Assembly: GCA_003249025.1 (NCBI GenBank)
Contig: QBMH01000019.1
Location: 1 to 37,726 of the forward strand
Length of the DNA stretch: 37,726 nucleotides
Direction of reading: 5' to 3'
DNA from: Leptolyngbya sp.
GTDB taxonomy: Bacteria; Cyanobacteriota; Cyanobacteriia; Leptolyngbyales; Leptolyngbyaceae
Below are positions 16,865-24,110 of the stretch, one piece after another. Position numbers and translations under genes: made by a program. Under the pieces are notes generated by a model that was not told the origin of the DNA, did no database searches, and was given only the letters and a program-made list of their open reading frames with translations. The number at the start of each line of letters is the position of its first letter. Positions within the stretch are counted from its first letter, which is position 1.

Positions 16865-18517
<1,653 letters not shown>

Positions 18518-18946
18518 ATGAAACCTCGCTTAATCATTCTTTGTACCGGTAATTCTTGCCGCAGCCAAATGGCGGAAGGGTTTTTGCGAGAATTAGCCGA
18601 TGATTTGTTTGAGGCTCAAAGTGCGGGCATGAACCCTGCTGCGGAGGTTCATCCACTGGCAGTCAAAGTGATGTCAGAAATTGGGATTGATATTTCTGGA
18701 AATACCTGCAAACACATCAATGCTTTCTTTGATGAGCCAATTGAGGCGGTAATTACCGTCTGCGACCATGCTGATCAAAGTTGTCCGGTCTTACCTGCGT
18801 CAACCAAGCGCCATCACTTCAGTTTTCCAGATCCCGCTTCGGCAGTAGGAACTGAAAATGAAAAACTCGTGGTGTTTCGCCAAATTCGGGACGATATCAG
18901 TCGTATCTTGTTAGCCTATGTTGCAGGCAGGCGTGATGCTCTGTGA
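18518..18946 (+). CDS. arsC: arsenate reductase, thioredoxin-coupled (LMW-PTPase fold)
   Basis: The product is 142 aa from ATG 18518 (MKPRLIILCTGNSCRSQMAE). The frame extends upstream to 18422 but without family sequence. It has the low-molecular-weight phosphatase P-loop CTGNSCRS (Cys9, Arg15) and the redox pair Cys82/Cys89 in VCDHADQSCPVLP. This spacing matches the Cys10/Cys82/Cys89 triad of the Staphylococcus pI258-type enzyme. HHFSFPDPA carries the conserved DP motif. It reduces arsenate to arsenite with thioredoxin in the cytosol. No arsR or arsenite pump lies in the window. A histidine kinase follows 27 nt later in the same direction. Diverged repeats flank the pair. Confidence 0.93.
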   Translation: MKPRLIILCTGNSCRSQMAEGFLRELADDLFEAQSAGMNPAAEVHPLAVKVMSEIGIDISGNTCKHINAFFDEPIEAVITVCDHADQSCPVLPASTKRHHFSFPDPASAVGTENEKLVVFRQIRDDISRILLAYVAGRRDAL

Positions 18947-18973
18947 GCTTCGCCGCAAATTCTTAGCCTGGGT

Positions 18974-20356
18974 ATGCCAAGTATGGTTAAGTTTCCTATG
19001 GTCATAGCACAAGCTCTTGCCGATCGCGAAGATTTGCTCATGGCGCTGATTGATCGCGCTGGACGATTTCTATGGGCGAATCAAGCATTTTCTTCATACA
19101 GCAAACAATCGCTTGAGGAAATGGTTGGACAGAAGTTCTTTCAGATTCTCTCTCTCAATGCTCAGCATTTGCCACAGAAGACCTATATTCAGGAACAACT
19201 GATCAAAGGTGAAAGCTTTAAGTTCGAGTTTGCCTATCAGCAGGAAGGACATCTCACTCAAGCATGGTTGTTGATGGATGGACAGCCTATTTGCGATTCG
19301 GAAGGAATCATTAGCCAGTACTCGCTACTCGCAACCGATATTACCCTACGCAAACAGGCGGAACTGGATCTGCAAGACGCAAAACGTTTGCTCGAACAGA
19401 GTAATCAGGCCCTAGAAGTGCGGGTGCAACAACGAACCTCGGCGCTGGTTCACGAAAAAGAACGGGCAGAACAGGCATTTCAGCAACTTCAGCAGATGCA
19501 ACTGCAACTCATTCAGAATGAAAAAATGTCGGCTCTGGGCAATCTTGTAGCCGGGATTGCCCATGAGATCAATAATCCAGTGGGTTTTTTAGCAGGTAAT
19601 TTGCAACCTGCTAGAGATTACGTGCAGGACTTGTTTGGCTTGATTGACTTGTATCAGGAGAAGTATCCTACGACTGATCCAGACGTTAGCGCTGAAATGG
19701 AGGCAATTGATCTGGACTATTTACGGGAAGATTTGCCAAAGCTGATCGGTTCGATGCAGGAGGGGGTAAATCGTCTCAAACACATCAGTACCAGTCTGCG
19801 AATTTTCTCGCGAACCGATAGCGATCGCCCCGTTCCCTTCAACATTCACGAAGGTCTTGATAGTACACTTTTAATCCTTAAACATCGTCTGAAGTCTAAT
19901 GAGAGACGACCTGACATTGAAGTCAGGAAAGAATACGGAGAACTGCCAACCGTTGAGTGCTACGCTGGGCAACTGAATCAGGTTTTCTTGAACTTACTGG
20001 CAAATGCGATTGAGGCATTAGAAGAATCGCAGCAAAAATGCAGCTTTGAAGCGCTTAAAGCTAATCCTCATCGAATTGAAATTCGCACACGGCTCTCTAA
20101 AGATGAGCAACAGGTTTTGATTTGCATTGCTGATAACGGACCTGGCATGACGGCAGAGGTGCAAGCCTGCATCTTTGATCAATCGTTTACGACCAAAGCA
20201 GTCGGTACAGGAACCGGATTGGGATTAGCGATCGCCCGTCAAATTGTTGTGGAGAAACATGGCGGCAACTTGTATTGTTGTTCTCAACCGGGTCAGGGAG
20301 CAGAGTTTGTGATTGAGCTTCCTATTCAACGACAAATGCACAAAACTCCCGCATAG
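18974..20356 (+). CDS. PAS-domain sensor histidine kinase
   Basis: The product is 460 aa from ATG 18974. There is no transmembrane segment, so a cytosolic sensor. Residues about 15-130 form a PAS domain with its C-terminal cap (LLATDITLRKQAE). About 131-185 is a coiled-coil rich in Gln and Glu (LLEQSNQALEVRVQQRT). The dimerisation motif NLVAGIAHEINNPVGFL carries phospho-acceptor His197, and the HATPase domain has the N box FLNLLANAIEAL, G1 IADNGPGM and G2 GTGTGLGLAIARQIV. No receiver domain is attached and no response regulator is next to it, so its partner is elsewhere. It follows arsC by 27 nt and is probably co-transcribed, though a functional link to arsenate is only inference. Confidence 0.9.
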   Translation: MPSMVKFPMVIAQALADREDLLMALIDRAGRFLWANQAFSSYSKQSLEEMVGQKFFQILSLNAQHLPQKTYIQEQLIKGESFKFEFAYQQEGHLTQAWLLMDGQPICDSEGIISQYSLLATDITLRKQAELDLQDAKRLLEQSNQALEVRVQQRTSALVHEKERAEQAFQQLQQMQLQLIQNEKMSALGNLVAGIAHEINNPVGFLAGNLQPARDYVQDLFGLIDLYQEKYPTTDPDVSAEMEAIDLDYLREDLPKLIGSMQEGVNRLKHISTSLRIFSRTDSDRPVPFNIHEGLDSTLLILKHRLKSNERRPDIEVRKEYGELPTVECYAGQLNQVFLNLLANAIEALEESQQKCSFEALKANPHRIEIRTRLSKDEQQVLICIADNGPGMTAEVQACIFDQSFTTKAVGTGTGLGLAIARQIVVEKHGGNLYCCSQPGQGAEFVIELPIQRQMHKTPA

Positions 20357-20670
20357 CTTGAAGATGAGTAAAGTTAAGACTTCTGATTTTATTCAGAGCG
20401 ATCTCAACCCTTACCAACAATCTGAAAACTAAGAACTAGAGAATTGCTGGGCGATCGCAACACTGACCAATAGCCTTAAACCCACACCTAAACCAATGGT
20501 GAAATACAGCCCAACGGCTCAAATCAGCGGTTGATACTTTCTCTGTATCAAATCTCAAGCAGCTTAGGTTAATCCGCCGCACCAGAGTTGTTATGCATCA
20601 CATTATTATCTTCTTCGCAAAAGTACCTTAAAAGGAAATTCATTATCCTCAGCAGCAGGAGCCTCAGAAA
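20357..20670. other. 314-bp gene-free stretch between two convergent genes
   Basis: It carries the second copy of the diverged direct repeat (20422-20565) and the last HIP1 site (20450-20458) before a HIP1-free region of almost 1.4 kb. No gene or clear terminator is seen. Confidence 0.5.
20422..20565. repeat. diverged direct repeat, copy 2 (3' of the histidine kinase)
   Basis: The partner of 18192-18328 in the same orientation, sharing three blocks at near-equal spacing; one (ACGGCTCAAATCARCGGT) matches at 18 of 20 positions when its flanks are included. The two copies bracket the arsC-kinase pair. Confidence 0.55.
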
Positions 20671-21621
20671 TTACTCCTGTGGAAGTGGTAAGTTTGTGAC
20701 GACAAAAAGATTCAGAATATCCTCTCTGTCCATAAAGAGGATTTGACTACGTTTCGAGGCATCAAGCTTATTCCCAAGCCAGTTCCGCGCAGCTTTAGTG
20801 ATTTCTCCACCAGCAACAATAAAGGCATGATCCACAAGAACTCGTTTTCCAATTTCAGAATCGAAAATTTCATGCCCTAGCATCATCGTGACTTGGTTGT
20901 GAATCTCAGCTACATTTGCATTACCCGATTTGGTAACACCTGAGGAATCAAGCTTGCCTTTTTTTGCTTGGAGACCAAAGTAGAGAACGTGTTGCGTCGG
21001 GAGAGTGAATTTCATCCAAACATCCTTTCCGTACTCCAGTGCCTTATCCTTATGTCCAGCAGCCGTGATGCGATGGAATCCCAACTGCCGGAATAGGGGC
21101 AGTAGAACCTCCTCGATGAGTTCGTCCTCCGATGCTGTATCTAAGTAGGCGAGGAGATGCACCCTTCTCTTCAACTCGGAGGCTGAGAACGGGCGGTGTG
21201 GGTCAGTGGCTGCCGACACGATTGTTTTAGTTGCAATGTGTCGTAAATAGCATTGCCCATCTTCACCGTAGAAAGCCTCGAAACCTTCTCGCGCCAAGGC
21301 ACTATTGAGTAGAGCTAGCGCACTTGGTCTGTCACTTCCTTCATTCAGCACGTCTGCTGGATCCATCAATGCTTGTATAACACGAGAGAAGGTCGCTGGT
21401 GGTGTCTGGGCGTTTGTGTGGGGCTCCGCCAAGATCTGCCAAAGGGTGTCAGCGACCCAATGATTGCGCGTAGAGCCGTCATGGACAAACTCAGTATCGC
21501 AATCCTGAAAGAAGCGCGTCAGATGGCTGCTGCTGCGATAAACGAAAAAGCTCTCCTCCGCCTTGTAATTTCCGCAGATCATATCCGCAATTGCTACTAA
21601 GGTGCGTTGTTTGAATTCCAC
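20671..21621 (-). CDS. AbiJ-like N-terminal domain plus QxK (Mrr-like) nuclease domain, candidate defence protein
   Basis: The product is 316 aa from GTG 21621 (no clear ribosome site). Residues about 8-140 resemble AbiJ-type N-terminal domains: IADMICGNY, SFFVYRSSSHLTRFFQD, EFVHDGSTRNHWV, VLNEGSDRPSALALLNSAL. Residues about 150-310 look like a restriction-endonuclease fold. A helix DELIEEVLLPLFRQLGF leads to a possible active site Asp200 (EYGKDVW) and Gln218-Ala-Lys220 (YFGLQAKKGKLD), the D...QxK variant seen in Mrr-like nucleases. A helix ANVAEIHNQVTMM and a strand AFIVAGGEITKAAR follow. Such proteins are expected to cut DNA, or RNA, when phage infection is sensed. No HIP1 site occurs in the gene, which suggests transfer. 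It is divergent from the NACHT gene. Domain calls are from motif memory. Confidence 0.7.
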   Translation of the reverse strand: MEFKQRTLVAIADMICGNYKAEESFFVYRSSSHLTRFFQDCDTEFVHDGSTRNHWVADTLWQILAEPHTNAQTPPATFSRVIQALMDPADVLNEGSDRPSALALLNSALAREGFEAFYGEDGQCYLRHIATKTIVSAATDPHRPFSASELKRRVHLLAYLDTASEDELIEEVLLPLFRQLGFHRITAAGHKDKALEYGKDVWMKFTLPTQHVLYFGLQAKKGKLDSSGVTKSGNANVAEIHNQVTMMLGHEIFDSEIGKRVLVDHAFIVAGGEITKAARNWLGNKLDASKRSQILFMDREDILNLFVVTNLPLPQE

Positions 21622-21941
21622 AATCTCGATCTAACCTATGCTCTTAAGTGTTGAATGGGTAGATACGTGCAATGTCCGGAACGCGCTTGGCAGTATGCTC
21701 CTGCGCCATATACCTCTTACGTAGGCGGAATTTTTTTGCATAAAATCCCTAATTAGGTAGATAGCGGAATCTTTTCGTATAGTATCCCGTTTGGGATGAA
21801 TGAGCAGAATCTTTCTGCCTATTTTATTAGATGTGTGAGGTTGTTAGCGATCGCCTCACTCAAAATCGGGTGGGGACAAACAGGACTGTGGACTACAGTA
21901 GTTTTACGGTCAATTAGTAATTTGCAGCGGATAATCTCCCT
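21622..21941. other. 320-bp divergent promoter region of the nuclease and NACHT genes
   Basis: This region separates the divergently transcribed nuclease and NACHT genes. It holds three degenerate direct repeats (21724-21829), a short ATCCC-gttt-GGGAT palindrome near 21783-21796 and a HIP1 site at 21845-21854. Its AT-rich core contrasts with the flanking genes. No gene of its own is supported. Confidence 0.55.
21724..21829. repeat. three degenerate direct repeats at 39-40-bp spacing
   Basis: The cores GGCGGAAT (21724), AGCGGAAT (21763) and AGCAGAAT (21803) are each followed by a T-rich run and then an A/T segment ending in ATCCC or TTATT. The period of 39 and 40 bp is close to four helical turns, so all three lie on one face of the DNA. 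Operator sites for a shared regulator are possible. Confidence 0.6.
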
Positions 21942-24110
21942 ATGGCATTTGAGCAGATGTTTATCTCGGCGGCAGCCTTAACCATTGGCTCCATTTGCAG
22001 CCGTGTGTTATGTGAAGGGGGCATCCGATTTGCCAGTTGGGTAGAAGCACAAAGTGACGATGCCGCGCGGATTATTCAAAAAGCATCGGAGAAATATGCC
22101 TGGAACTATGCCAAACGTCACGGCATGATGAAAGTGCTGGGAATGCGAGAGCCAGTCCCTTTAGAGTCAGTGTATACAGCAGTACGATTTTTGGATCGAG
22201 AGAGCATTAGCCGATTTGACTCGATTGAAGATCTAGAAAAGGCATTTCGCGAACAGGGCGATCGCCGCTTTCAAAAAAAAGCAAAAAAAATCGATGGGCT
22301 ACGAGTTGCCAACGACAAGCAATATTTGATGGTATTGGGGGGTCCGGGTGCAGGCAAATCCACCTTTTTACGAAAAATGGGCTTGGAAGCGCTAAAGGGC
22401 AATAGTCTCGAAAATGGCTATGTGCATGAGTGCATCCCAGTGCTGATTGAGTTAAAAAACTTTTCCTCGAATGAAATCGCGATTGAGCAGGCGATCGCTC
22501 AAGAGTTTCGCATTTGCGGCATTCCATCGCCAGAGATCGTTACCACCAAACTGCTGGAGGCAGGCAACCTGCTGATTTTGCTGGATGGGCTGGATGAAGT
22601 GCCCACCAAACAGATGACCCATGCCATTCAGCAGATTCAAAATTTTGTTGACCAATATGACAAAAATCGGTTTGTGGCATCCTGTCGCCTTGCCGCTTAC
22701 CGCAACAACTTTTATCGATTTACCGATGTGGCGATGGCAGACTTTGACCACGAGCAGGTGAAGCAGTTTATTCACCGATGGTTTCAGTCGGAAGAAGATG
22801 TGAAATTGAATACGGCGCAGCGCTGTTGGCATTTATTGCAGCAGCCAGAATATGCCGCCACCAAAGAACTGGCTCACACGCCCCTCCTCCTCACCCTGCT
22901 GTGTTTGGTATTTGATGATTCCCAAACCTTTCCCAAAAATCGAGCGGTACTGTATGGTGAAGCGCTTGATGTGCTGTTGAAAAAGTGGGCATCGGAACGA
23001 CGAATTCAGCGCGACCCGATTTACCAAGATCTCAGCATTGCGCTGGAAGAGATGATGTTGGCAGAGATTGCCTACAAACACTTTGAGGCAAATCGCTTAT
23101 TTTTTACGAAGCGCGAAGTTGTGGAGCAAATTCGTACCTTTCTGGCGGAAAATCTGAATGCACCCAAGCATTTAGATGGAGAAGCGGTACTGGAGGCGAT
23201 CGCCATTCAGCAAGGAATCATCGTGGAGCGGGCACAGGAAGTCTACTCGTTTTCTCACCTGACCTTGCAGGAGTATCTGGCAGCCCAGTATATTGACGAC
23301 CACCACCTCACCCAAACCCTGGTGCAAGAGCATTTAACCCATGAGCGTTGGCAAGAAGTGTTTTTGCTCGTGGCGGGAGTGATGCGGAGTGGCGCGGATG
23401 CTCTGCTGTTGGCAATGGAAGCAGAGGCAAACACGTTCATCAACACGCCCAAGCTGAAAGCGTTGCTGCAATGGACTGAGGAAGTCACTACCGAATCGAC
23501 GGGTAGTCTATCACCTGCCGCTAAGCGCACGACTGCCTTGTTTCTGGCGCTGGTCAATCATCGCGCTTTGAACTTGGCGCGGGTGCTTGATCCCAATCTG
23601 GCAAGTACCTTGGAACTGGCGCGTACTTTGGCAAATATTCGCACCCTAGAGTCTTCATACACCGAAGACAATACCCCCGCTCGATCCGCGATCCCCACTC
23701 GTGCGTTGGCGATCGCCCTGACGCGATCGCTGCCGACTCGCCCCATGGGGCAGGCACTCACCAAAACATTTACTAAAACCTTTACCGATGAACTGGGCAA
23801 GCTACAGGCATTTCAAGAAACGACCCTCCAGCAATTAGTGACGCAGCTAAAAGCATTGAATCTGCGATCGCCCGATATTCGCCAATCGGCAACCGTCCTG
23901 CAAGAGTTCCACATGCAAGTGTTTCATACCTGGTTTAGCACGCTCAAACTTGATCCCACCTGGATCAGCCTTTCCACTGAAGAACTACGAAAACTCGATC
24001 GCTATCTCTACGCCAATTGGCTGCTCGTGCGCTGTAAACAAGCGGCTGTCAGAGTTTCGCCCCGCACCTGGGCAAGCATCGAATCACGCCTTTTGCGGGT
24101 ATCACCCTAA
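21942..24110 (+). CDS. NACHT-domain NTPase (STAND/NLR-like)
   Basis: The product is 722 aa from ATG 21942. An N-terminal helical segment of about 115 residues includes a hydrophobic start (FISAAALTIGSICSRVL) that could be a membrane or effector-type helix. The NACHT domain has Walker A LGGPGAGKST (132-141) and Walker B LLILLDGLDEV (210-220), the Asp-Gly-Leu-Asp-Glu form typical of NACHT. Winged-helix-like features follow (AHTPLLLTLLCLVF, YSFSHLTLQEYLAAQY). The last 200 or so residues are helical with Ala/Arg/Thr-rich, weakly repeated segments (ALNLARVL, LELARTLAN, RALAIALTRSL) and no known sensor repeat. Bacterial NACHT proteins can give phage immunity on sensing infection; here that is inference. 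HIP1 sites are present, unlike its neighbour. Confidence 0.88.
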   Translation: MAFEQMFISAAALTIGSICSRVLCEGGIRFASWVEAQSDDAARIIQKASEKYAWNYAKRHGMMKVLGMREPVPLESVYTAVRFLDRESISRFDSIEDLEKAFREQGDRRFQKKAKKIDGLRVANDKQYLMVLGGPGAGKSTFLRKMGLEALKGNSLENGYVHECIPVLIELKNFSSNEIAIEQAIAQEFRICGIPSPEIVTTKLLEAGNLLILLDGLDEVPTKQMTHAIQQIQNFVDQYDKNRFVASCRLAAYRNNFYRFTDVAMADFDHEQVKQFIHRWFQSEEDVKLNTAQRCWHLLQQPEYAATKELAHTPLLLTLLCLVFDDSQTFPKNRAVLYGEALDVLLKKWASERRIQRDPIYQDLSIALEEMMLAEIAYKHFEANRLFFTKREVVEQIRTFLAENLNAPKHLDGEAVLEAIAIQQGIIVERAQEVYSFSHLTLQEYLAAQYIDDHHLTQTLVQEHLTHERWQEVFLLVAGVMRSGADALLLAMEAEANTFINTPKLKALLQWTEEVTTESTGSLSPAAKRTTALFLALVNHRALNLARVLDPNLASTLELARTLANIRTLESSYTEDNTPARSAIPTRALAIALTRSLPTRPMGQALTKTFTKTFTDELGKLQAFQETTLQQLVTQLKALNLRSPDIRQSATVLQEFHMQVFHTWFSTLKLDPTWISLSTEELRKLDRYLYANWLLVRCKQAAVRVSPRTWASIESRLLRVSP

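Follow-up and report, generated by a model that had tools for sequence, protein, structure and literature searches.

An open reading frame (ORF) of 316 codons with a GTG start occupies positions 20671–21621, on the minus strand, of a 37,726-nucleotide stretch of DNA from the cyanobacterium Leptolyngbya sp. (the whole stretch is called the window below), and it raises a twofold question: what does a protein built from two such dissimilar halves do, and how did its gene come to lie there? A sequence-only reading had proposed an AbiJ-like N-terminus joined in an unusual fusion to a D...QxK nuclease-like C-terminus, recently acquired in an island free of HIP1 sites. Comparing the protein with its relatives, we find the most interesting feature at the C-terminus of the relatives; in the window it lies past the stop codon of the ORF.

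The ORF (P0001) is genuine. Full-length relatives at 65–86% identity align with it over its whole length, and the motif blocks that had been picked out are all in the 316-codon frame, with YRSSS at residues 28–32, VHDGSTR at 46–52, GKDVW at 198–202, and QAKKG at 218–222. The idea of a new joining does not hold, as many phyla have this two-part protein, conserved at ~70% identity; judged from these alignments, the two-part design is ancient and not a local fusion. Profile searches of Pfam, NCBIfam 2026, and PADLOC 2023 with the window protein gave no significant match, a PDB sequence search returned no relatives, and wherever the records shown annotate family genes, they read "hypothetical protein".

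Two domains, one a predicted nuclease

The AlphaFold model of the whole protein (mean pLDDT 82, pTM 0.52) divides into an N-terminal domain, residues 1–145 (21187–21621, minus strand, as for all features of the ORF), and a C-terminal domain, residues 146–316 (20674–21186); the low pTM probably reflects uncertain placement of the two halves. The C-terminal model contains a helix at residues 165–179, strands at 183–187, 201–206, and 212–220, a helix at 235–247, and further strands. Structural comparison matched 136–139 of its residues to AspBHI (Z 10.4; 3.7 Å over 136) and MspJI (Z 10.0), followed by AF1548 and FokI, where models with no clear match form a background of Z 7 to 8; a viral structure library gave generic restriction-fold matches only. 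Aligned by hhalign with a profile of 15 Mrr_cat domains from related cyanobacteria, the nuclease-half profile scored a probability of 80% (E 1.4e-5) and placed D200 (21022–21024) and Q218-x-K220 (20962–20970), the predicted catalytic residues, on those of Mrr. Together with E165 (21127–21129), an acidic residue in the helix that precedes the nuclease core, they are invariant in 63 sequences and kept in the window copy. Single sequences stayed below the Pfam gathering cut-off for Mrr_cat (PF04471), with the window protein unmatched and the best of the 63 members at E 0.01. The models and profiles make it close to certain that residues 146–316 form a PD-(D/E)XK domain, predicted to cleave DNA in a metal-dependent manner. 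The nuclease-like C-terminus first read from the letters is thereby confirmed by its fold, its invariant D200, Q218, and K220, and its profile match, and the comparison with Mrr suggested at the time returns a restriction-endonuclease fold closest to AspBHI and MspJI.

The N-terminal domain, modelled alone, is predicted with good confidence (pLDDT 86.8, pTM 0.84) and consists mainly of helices, five of them main ones, with a final β hairpin; its invariant residues are G17, F37, F38, H47, G49, R52, and W55. A PDB fold search with this model found no match (best Z 3.8), which does not prove a new fold, and no SRA-like or other known DNA-reading domain was matched in that comparison. The likeness to AbiJ is at most suggestive. 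Matches to AbiJ_NTD3 below threshold appear in 9 of the 63 members, the best at E 0.015 (in the member shown, residues 77–119 against profile positions 82–123); hhalign of the N-terminal half against AbiJ-NTD3 gives a probability of 0.7%, over a local match of 41 columns in the same stretch, and no solved fold matches. A search for AbiJ-NTD3 sequences from a second phylum, sought for a sharper profile, found none. A very distant relationship to AbiJ-NTD3 is only suggested by these sequence matches. As for membership of AbiJ itself, the C-terminal HEPN RNase is absent and a PD-(D/E)XK nuclease stands in its place. AbiJ-NTD3 is described in front of REase domains, including DUF2726, in a passage of Anantharaman et al. 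2013 (PMC3710099), so the architecture of AbiJ-NTD3 plus nuclease would not be unprecedented. With those fusions the family shares a small domain ahead of a restriction-fold nuclease and the faint N-terminal likeness; it differs in that its C-terminal domain is unmatched to DUF2726 and its AbiJ-NTD3 likeness is not significant, and the passage describing the fusions gives them no tail.

A C-terminal tail resembling that of SSB

The relatives are mostly 325–342 residues long, compared with 316 for the window ORF. Beyond the nuclease domain they carry an extension of 13–21 residues in all, made of a variable linker and a conserved end: 92 of 98 relatives terminate in Pro-Phe, position −4 is acidic in 84% and −5 in 76%, and −3 is mostly I, P, or L (DDDIPF and DEPPF are examples). 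PF ends were found in none of 268 control ORFs drawn from elsewhere in these genomes and in three of 829 neighbouring ORFs, all three in one cluster. The C-terminal tip of E. coli SSB is given as DDDIPF in a passage of PMC5872125, and SSB is described as recruiting its repair and replication partners through this tip in parts of PMC10164576 and PMC10018359. That the tail of the relatives resembles this SSB C-terminus (SSB-Ct) in layout and sequence is well supported by the alignments: shared are the variable linker, the acidic residues, the terminal x-P-F, and a tip type that tends to match the host SSB. Unlike SSB, the family has no OB fold and bears the tip on a nuclease; the OB-fold SSB domain (PF00436) drew no Pfam match in the window protein or the 63 members, and the two domains modelled here are a mainly helical one and a nuclease. 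Our search of open-access papers found none on SSB-tail mimicry in defence nucleases.

The tail may also follow its host. In 18 of 29 pairs, the family protein and an SSB of its own genome agree at residue −3 (7.6 expected by shuffling), and P at this position occurs in 8 of the 11 pairs from Actinomycetota and in 0 of the 18 others; three actinobacterial pairs break the P match. On the family tree, which was built without the tail, Actinomycetota occupy two positions, with PPF tails in both. Because the tree gives just two independent entries of Actinomycetota, and a sign test needs more, adaptation of the tail to the host SSB is suggested by the sequences and not proven, with shared descent as a possible alternative.

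In the window copy, one base is missing between 20680 and 20681 (minus strand CTTCC-ACAGG) relative to three family members (L006, L007, and L024), and the frame is shifted ahead of the tail. The window translation stops at LPLPQE, and a tail remnant, VISEAPAAEDNEFPF (20630–20674), recognised by direct reading beside the tails of the relatives, lies in another frame, untranslated with the ORF and with its stop codon altered too. The nuclease domain and its motif are intact. The SSBs of this genome end LDDIPF and QDEF, and the second cyanobacterial copy of the family (L064) ends EEDGLSF, not PF. Two explanations are decay of the tail in cyanobacteria and an assembly error behind the window frameshift; as the frameshift removed the tail and the nuclease motif was kept, the window copy is decaying, mis-sequenced, or working without the docking that we propose below.

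Distribution, acquisition, and neighbours of the gene

One scan of a genome collection yielded 146 relatives, of which 80 were kept (65–86% identity, nearly all full-length), from at least eight phyla: Pseudomonadota, Actinomycetota, Bacteroidota, Thermodesulfobacteriota, Myxococcota, Verrucomicrobiota, Vulcanimicrobiota, and Cyanobacteriota. Further copies lie in 46 plasmid records, 24 of them conjugative, and in nine viral contigs. Family sequence is present in 191 of 5,426 complete E. coli genomes (~3.5%), nearly always at 80–90% DNA identity to a plasmid copy; the E. coli chromosomal copy that we inspected (L143:9001-9981, end NDDIPF) sits in a lambdoid prophage remnant, flanked by a site-specific integrase gene and hokD. 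Searches of PHROGs and of 50,697 phage records found no family match. Plasmid carriage, the spread in E. coli, the copy in a prophage remnant, and the lack of a fixed partner gene support a horizontally mobile gene.

Among 292 cyanobacterial genomes, the window's own included, a full match occurs only in the window's genome and a broken remnant in one other; the second full cyanobacterial copy, from the genome-collection scan, belongs to Nodosilinea (L064). The remnant, in another cyanobacterium (L125; G183:C26:15782-15988), covers residues 201–271 at 45% identity with one stop. On the tree, the window copy groups with metagenome-assembled genomes (MAGs) of Thermodesulfobacteriota and Burkholderiales (SH-aLRT 98 and 97), in which binning errors are possible. 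In a genome of the same genus the neighbouring NACHT gene is present, with 87% identity to the window DNA from 21847 onwards, and the family gene is not beside it. We considered this a candidate for a clean empty site and rejected it: the sequence left of that NACHT gene differs, with ORFs that we take by eye to be moaC-like and MAPEG-like, and the difference is therefore a rearrangement, not a simple insertion.

Horizontal acquisition of the window gene is well supported, because its distribution is patchy, its place on the tree is beside other phyla, and its nearest relatives are in other phyla. The sequence-only reading had also called for acquisition, and a recent one, from the absence of HIP1 sites; the acquisition stands on distribution, phylogeny, and the absence of the gene beside the same-genus NACHT gene, and the argument by which it was reached does not. 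HIP1 (GCGATCGC) is absent, as had been noticed, from 20459 to 21846, which is 1,388 bp in all. With 8,420 sites in 5.46 Mb, or 1 per 649 bp, the genome would by chance have ~12% of its intervals, ~990 in number, at least as long. In 97 kb of the genome, 10 of 171 gaps reach this length and contain 18% of the bases between HIP1 sites; two of the ten are inside the window, where the gap at 18127–19821 is longer than that of the ORF. As such gaps are common, we rejected this one, an ordinary one by these counts, as evidence of recent acquisition.

The divergent neighbour of the window gene, at 21942–24110, encodes a NACHT-NCH2 protein (PF05729, PF22727) that bears a weak likeness to anti-phage NACHT proteins. 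The interval between the two genes contains a dispersed repeat (21741–21858), of which the genome has an 81% copy in C399 and shorter copies in C282 and C89; the repeat ends at a HIP1 site (21847–21854) and is possibly a small mobile or palindromic element.

Across the family we found no conserved partner gene, the most frequent neighbour clusters occurring in 3 of 80 loci. A vapBC pair directly upstream was considered as an operon partner and rejected, being confined to four related enterobacterial plasmids (L132:7202-7845, L133:7218-7861, L134:7199-7842, and L140:2202-2845), in three of which an opposite-strand ATPase gene follows. One plasmid copy adjoins xth, ligD, and an SOS peptidase gene. 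At E 1e-5, 150 neighbour ORFs match 146 PADLOC models and 150 control ORFs match 7, a comparison that counts models and not proteins, with control regions of mostly core genome; since many of the models are redundant, the enrichment is to be read as an indication, not a rate. The models matched by neighbours include type I and II methyltransferases and MADS.

In three Pseudomonas loci (L057:7082-8572, L065:7076-8566, and L081:7076-8566), a Shedu gene whose product ends DEDLPF lies 89–95 bp downstream of the family gene; in the two that were scanned, SduA_C matches at E 2.5e-21 and 8.6e-23. Two plasmid relatives of this Shedu end EHLPF and DTVPF, and two others, together with the more distant Shedus that we read, have no PF end. 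Judged from these termini, more than one defence nuclease may carry an SSB-like end. Shedu (SduA, PF14082) is a single-gene PD-(D/E)XK anti-phage nuclease, as the present family probably is too, and some members of the subfamily at the Pseudomonas loci share the xPF end; the family differs in its N-terminal domain and is unrelated by sequence; SduA_C is missing both from the matches of the window protein and from the listed families of the 63 members.

Proposed function and alternative explanations

With slightly better than even confidence, we read the family as a stand-alone, mobile defence nuclease that uses a mimic of the SSB tip to reach the SSB-partner proteins of its host. Residues 146–316 would be the DNase, and residues 1–145 are conjectured to be a sensing or regulating part. 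In intact members, the short variable linker would bear the imitation of the host tip, D/E-D/E-I/L/P-P-F. Since host SSB recruits its partners by its tip, a nuclease with the same tip should be able to sit on them; we propose that it docks on SSB-interacting proteins of the RecQ/RecO/RecJ/ExoI/PriA/HolC class at replication and repair intermediates. The docked enzyme would be located at forks, gaps, and broken ends, and may cut where invading phage or plasmid DNA replicates or recombines. We infer that the family probably has an anti-phage role; the setting to which this explanation appeals consists of the PADLOC-rich neighbours, the Shedu genes beside three Pseudomonas copies, and the NACHT protein beside the window copy. 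Against the explanation stand the absence of the tail from the window copy, the LSF end of the other cyanobacterial copy (L064), and the three actinobacterial pairs that break the P match. More tentatively, and with less than even confidence, we suggest that at least two unrelated defence nuclease families, the present one and the Shedu subfamily, share an "SSB passport" that targets invading DNA: their tips would imitate that of the host SSB, become adjusted to a new host once transferred, and let SSB-partner proteins bring the nucleases to complexes of replication and repair.

Four other explanations account for parts of the same evidence. The protein may be a modification-dependent restriction enzyme of type IV, or a restriction enzyme of another kind, its N-terminal domain reading DNA modification or structure and the PF tail secondary. 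The enzymes that its nuclease domain resembles most in structure, AspBHI and MspJI (ahead of AF1548 and FokI), are modification-dependent, the gene stands alone without a methyltransferase partner, and some loci adjoin restriction-modification genes; with Mrr, MspJI, and AspBHI (Mrr_cat, PF04471) the family shares a PD-(D/E)XK core with D and QxK, a stand-alone gene, and an N-terminal domain followed by a C-terminal nuclease. It differs from them in its N-terminal domain, for which the fold search matched no SRA-like or other known DNA-reading domain, in lacking a significant single-sequence Pfam match, and in its SSB-like tail, whose nearly invariant PF tip a restriction enzyme would leave unexplained, and we regard this account as unlikely. 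The tip might instead be an autoinhibitory peptide that occupies the protein's own nuclease or N-terminal domain, its likeness to SSB being convergent: SSB tails can fold back onto the protein that bears them, and here linker and tip come straight after the nuclease domain. The tip, however, tracks host lineage (I/L in most phyla, P in Actinomycetota) on a nuclease domain that is almost invariant, which makes autoinhibition improbable.

An enzyme that joins repair complexes by its tip might also be a nuclease of DNA repair or replication restart that plasmids have spread, with no role in defence. That SSB gathers repair proteins by SSB-Ct, as passages of PMC10164576 and PMC10018359 describe, would suit such a nuclease, as would the plasmid copy next to xth, ligD, and the SOS peptidase gene; its very patchy presence, prophage and plasmid sites, and many defence neighbours argue against it, and we hold it to be rather unlikely, somewhat more so than a restriction enzyme. 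An AbiJ-type abortive-infection protein whose HEPN RNase was replaced by a DNase would fit the weak AbiJ_NTD3 and hhalign matches in the same stretch and the AbiJ-NTD3 fusions to other REases described in part of PMC3710099, but every score is far under its cut-off, and of all the accounts we give this one the least credence.

For a defence nuclease with an SSB-like tip there are relatives in kind. Nhi, Retron-Eco8, and Hachiman respond to phage SSB and, with Shedu, are tied to SSB or DNA ends (PMC12904381). The family would share with Nhi, Retron-Eco8, and Hachiman a link between nucleases and SSB biology; in contrast to these systems, in which phage SSB is sensed, the nuclease itself would bear an imitation of the host tip.

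What is new is the SSB-like C-terminal tip on members of an unannotated nuclease family, one that is widespread in many phyla and in ~3.5% of complete E. coli genomes and is still called a hypothetical protein. An acidic-x-PF terminus on a nuclease is a simple sign by which more such proteins may be found. If the tail docks as we propose, the family would illustrate how the SSB interaction network of the host can direct a solo DNase, one that has no modification partner, to particular DNA.
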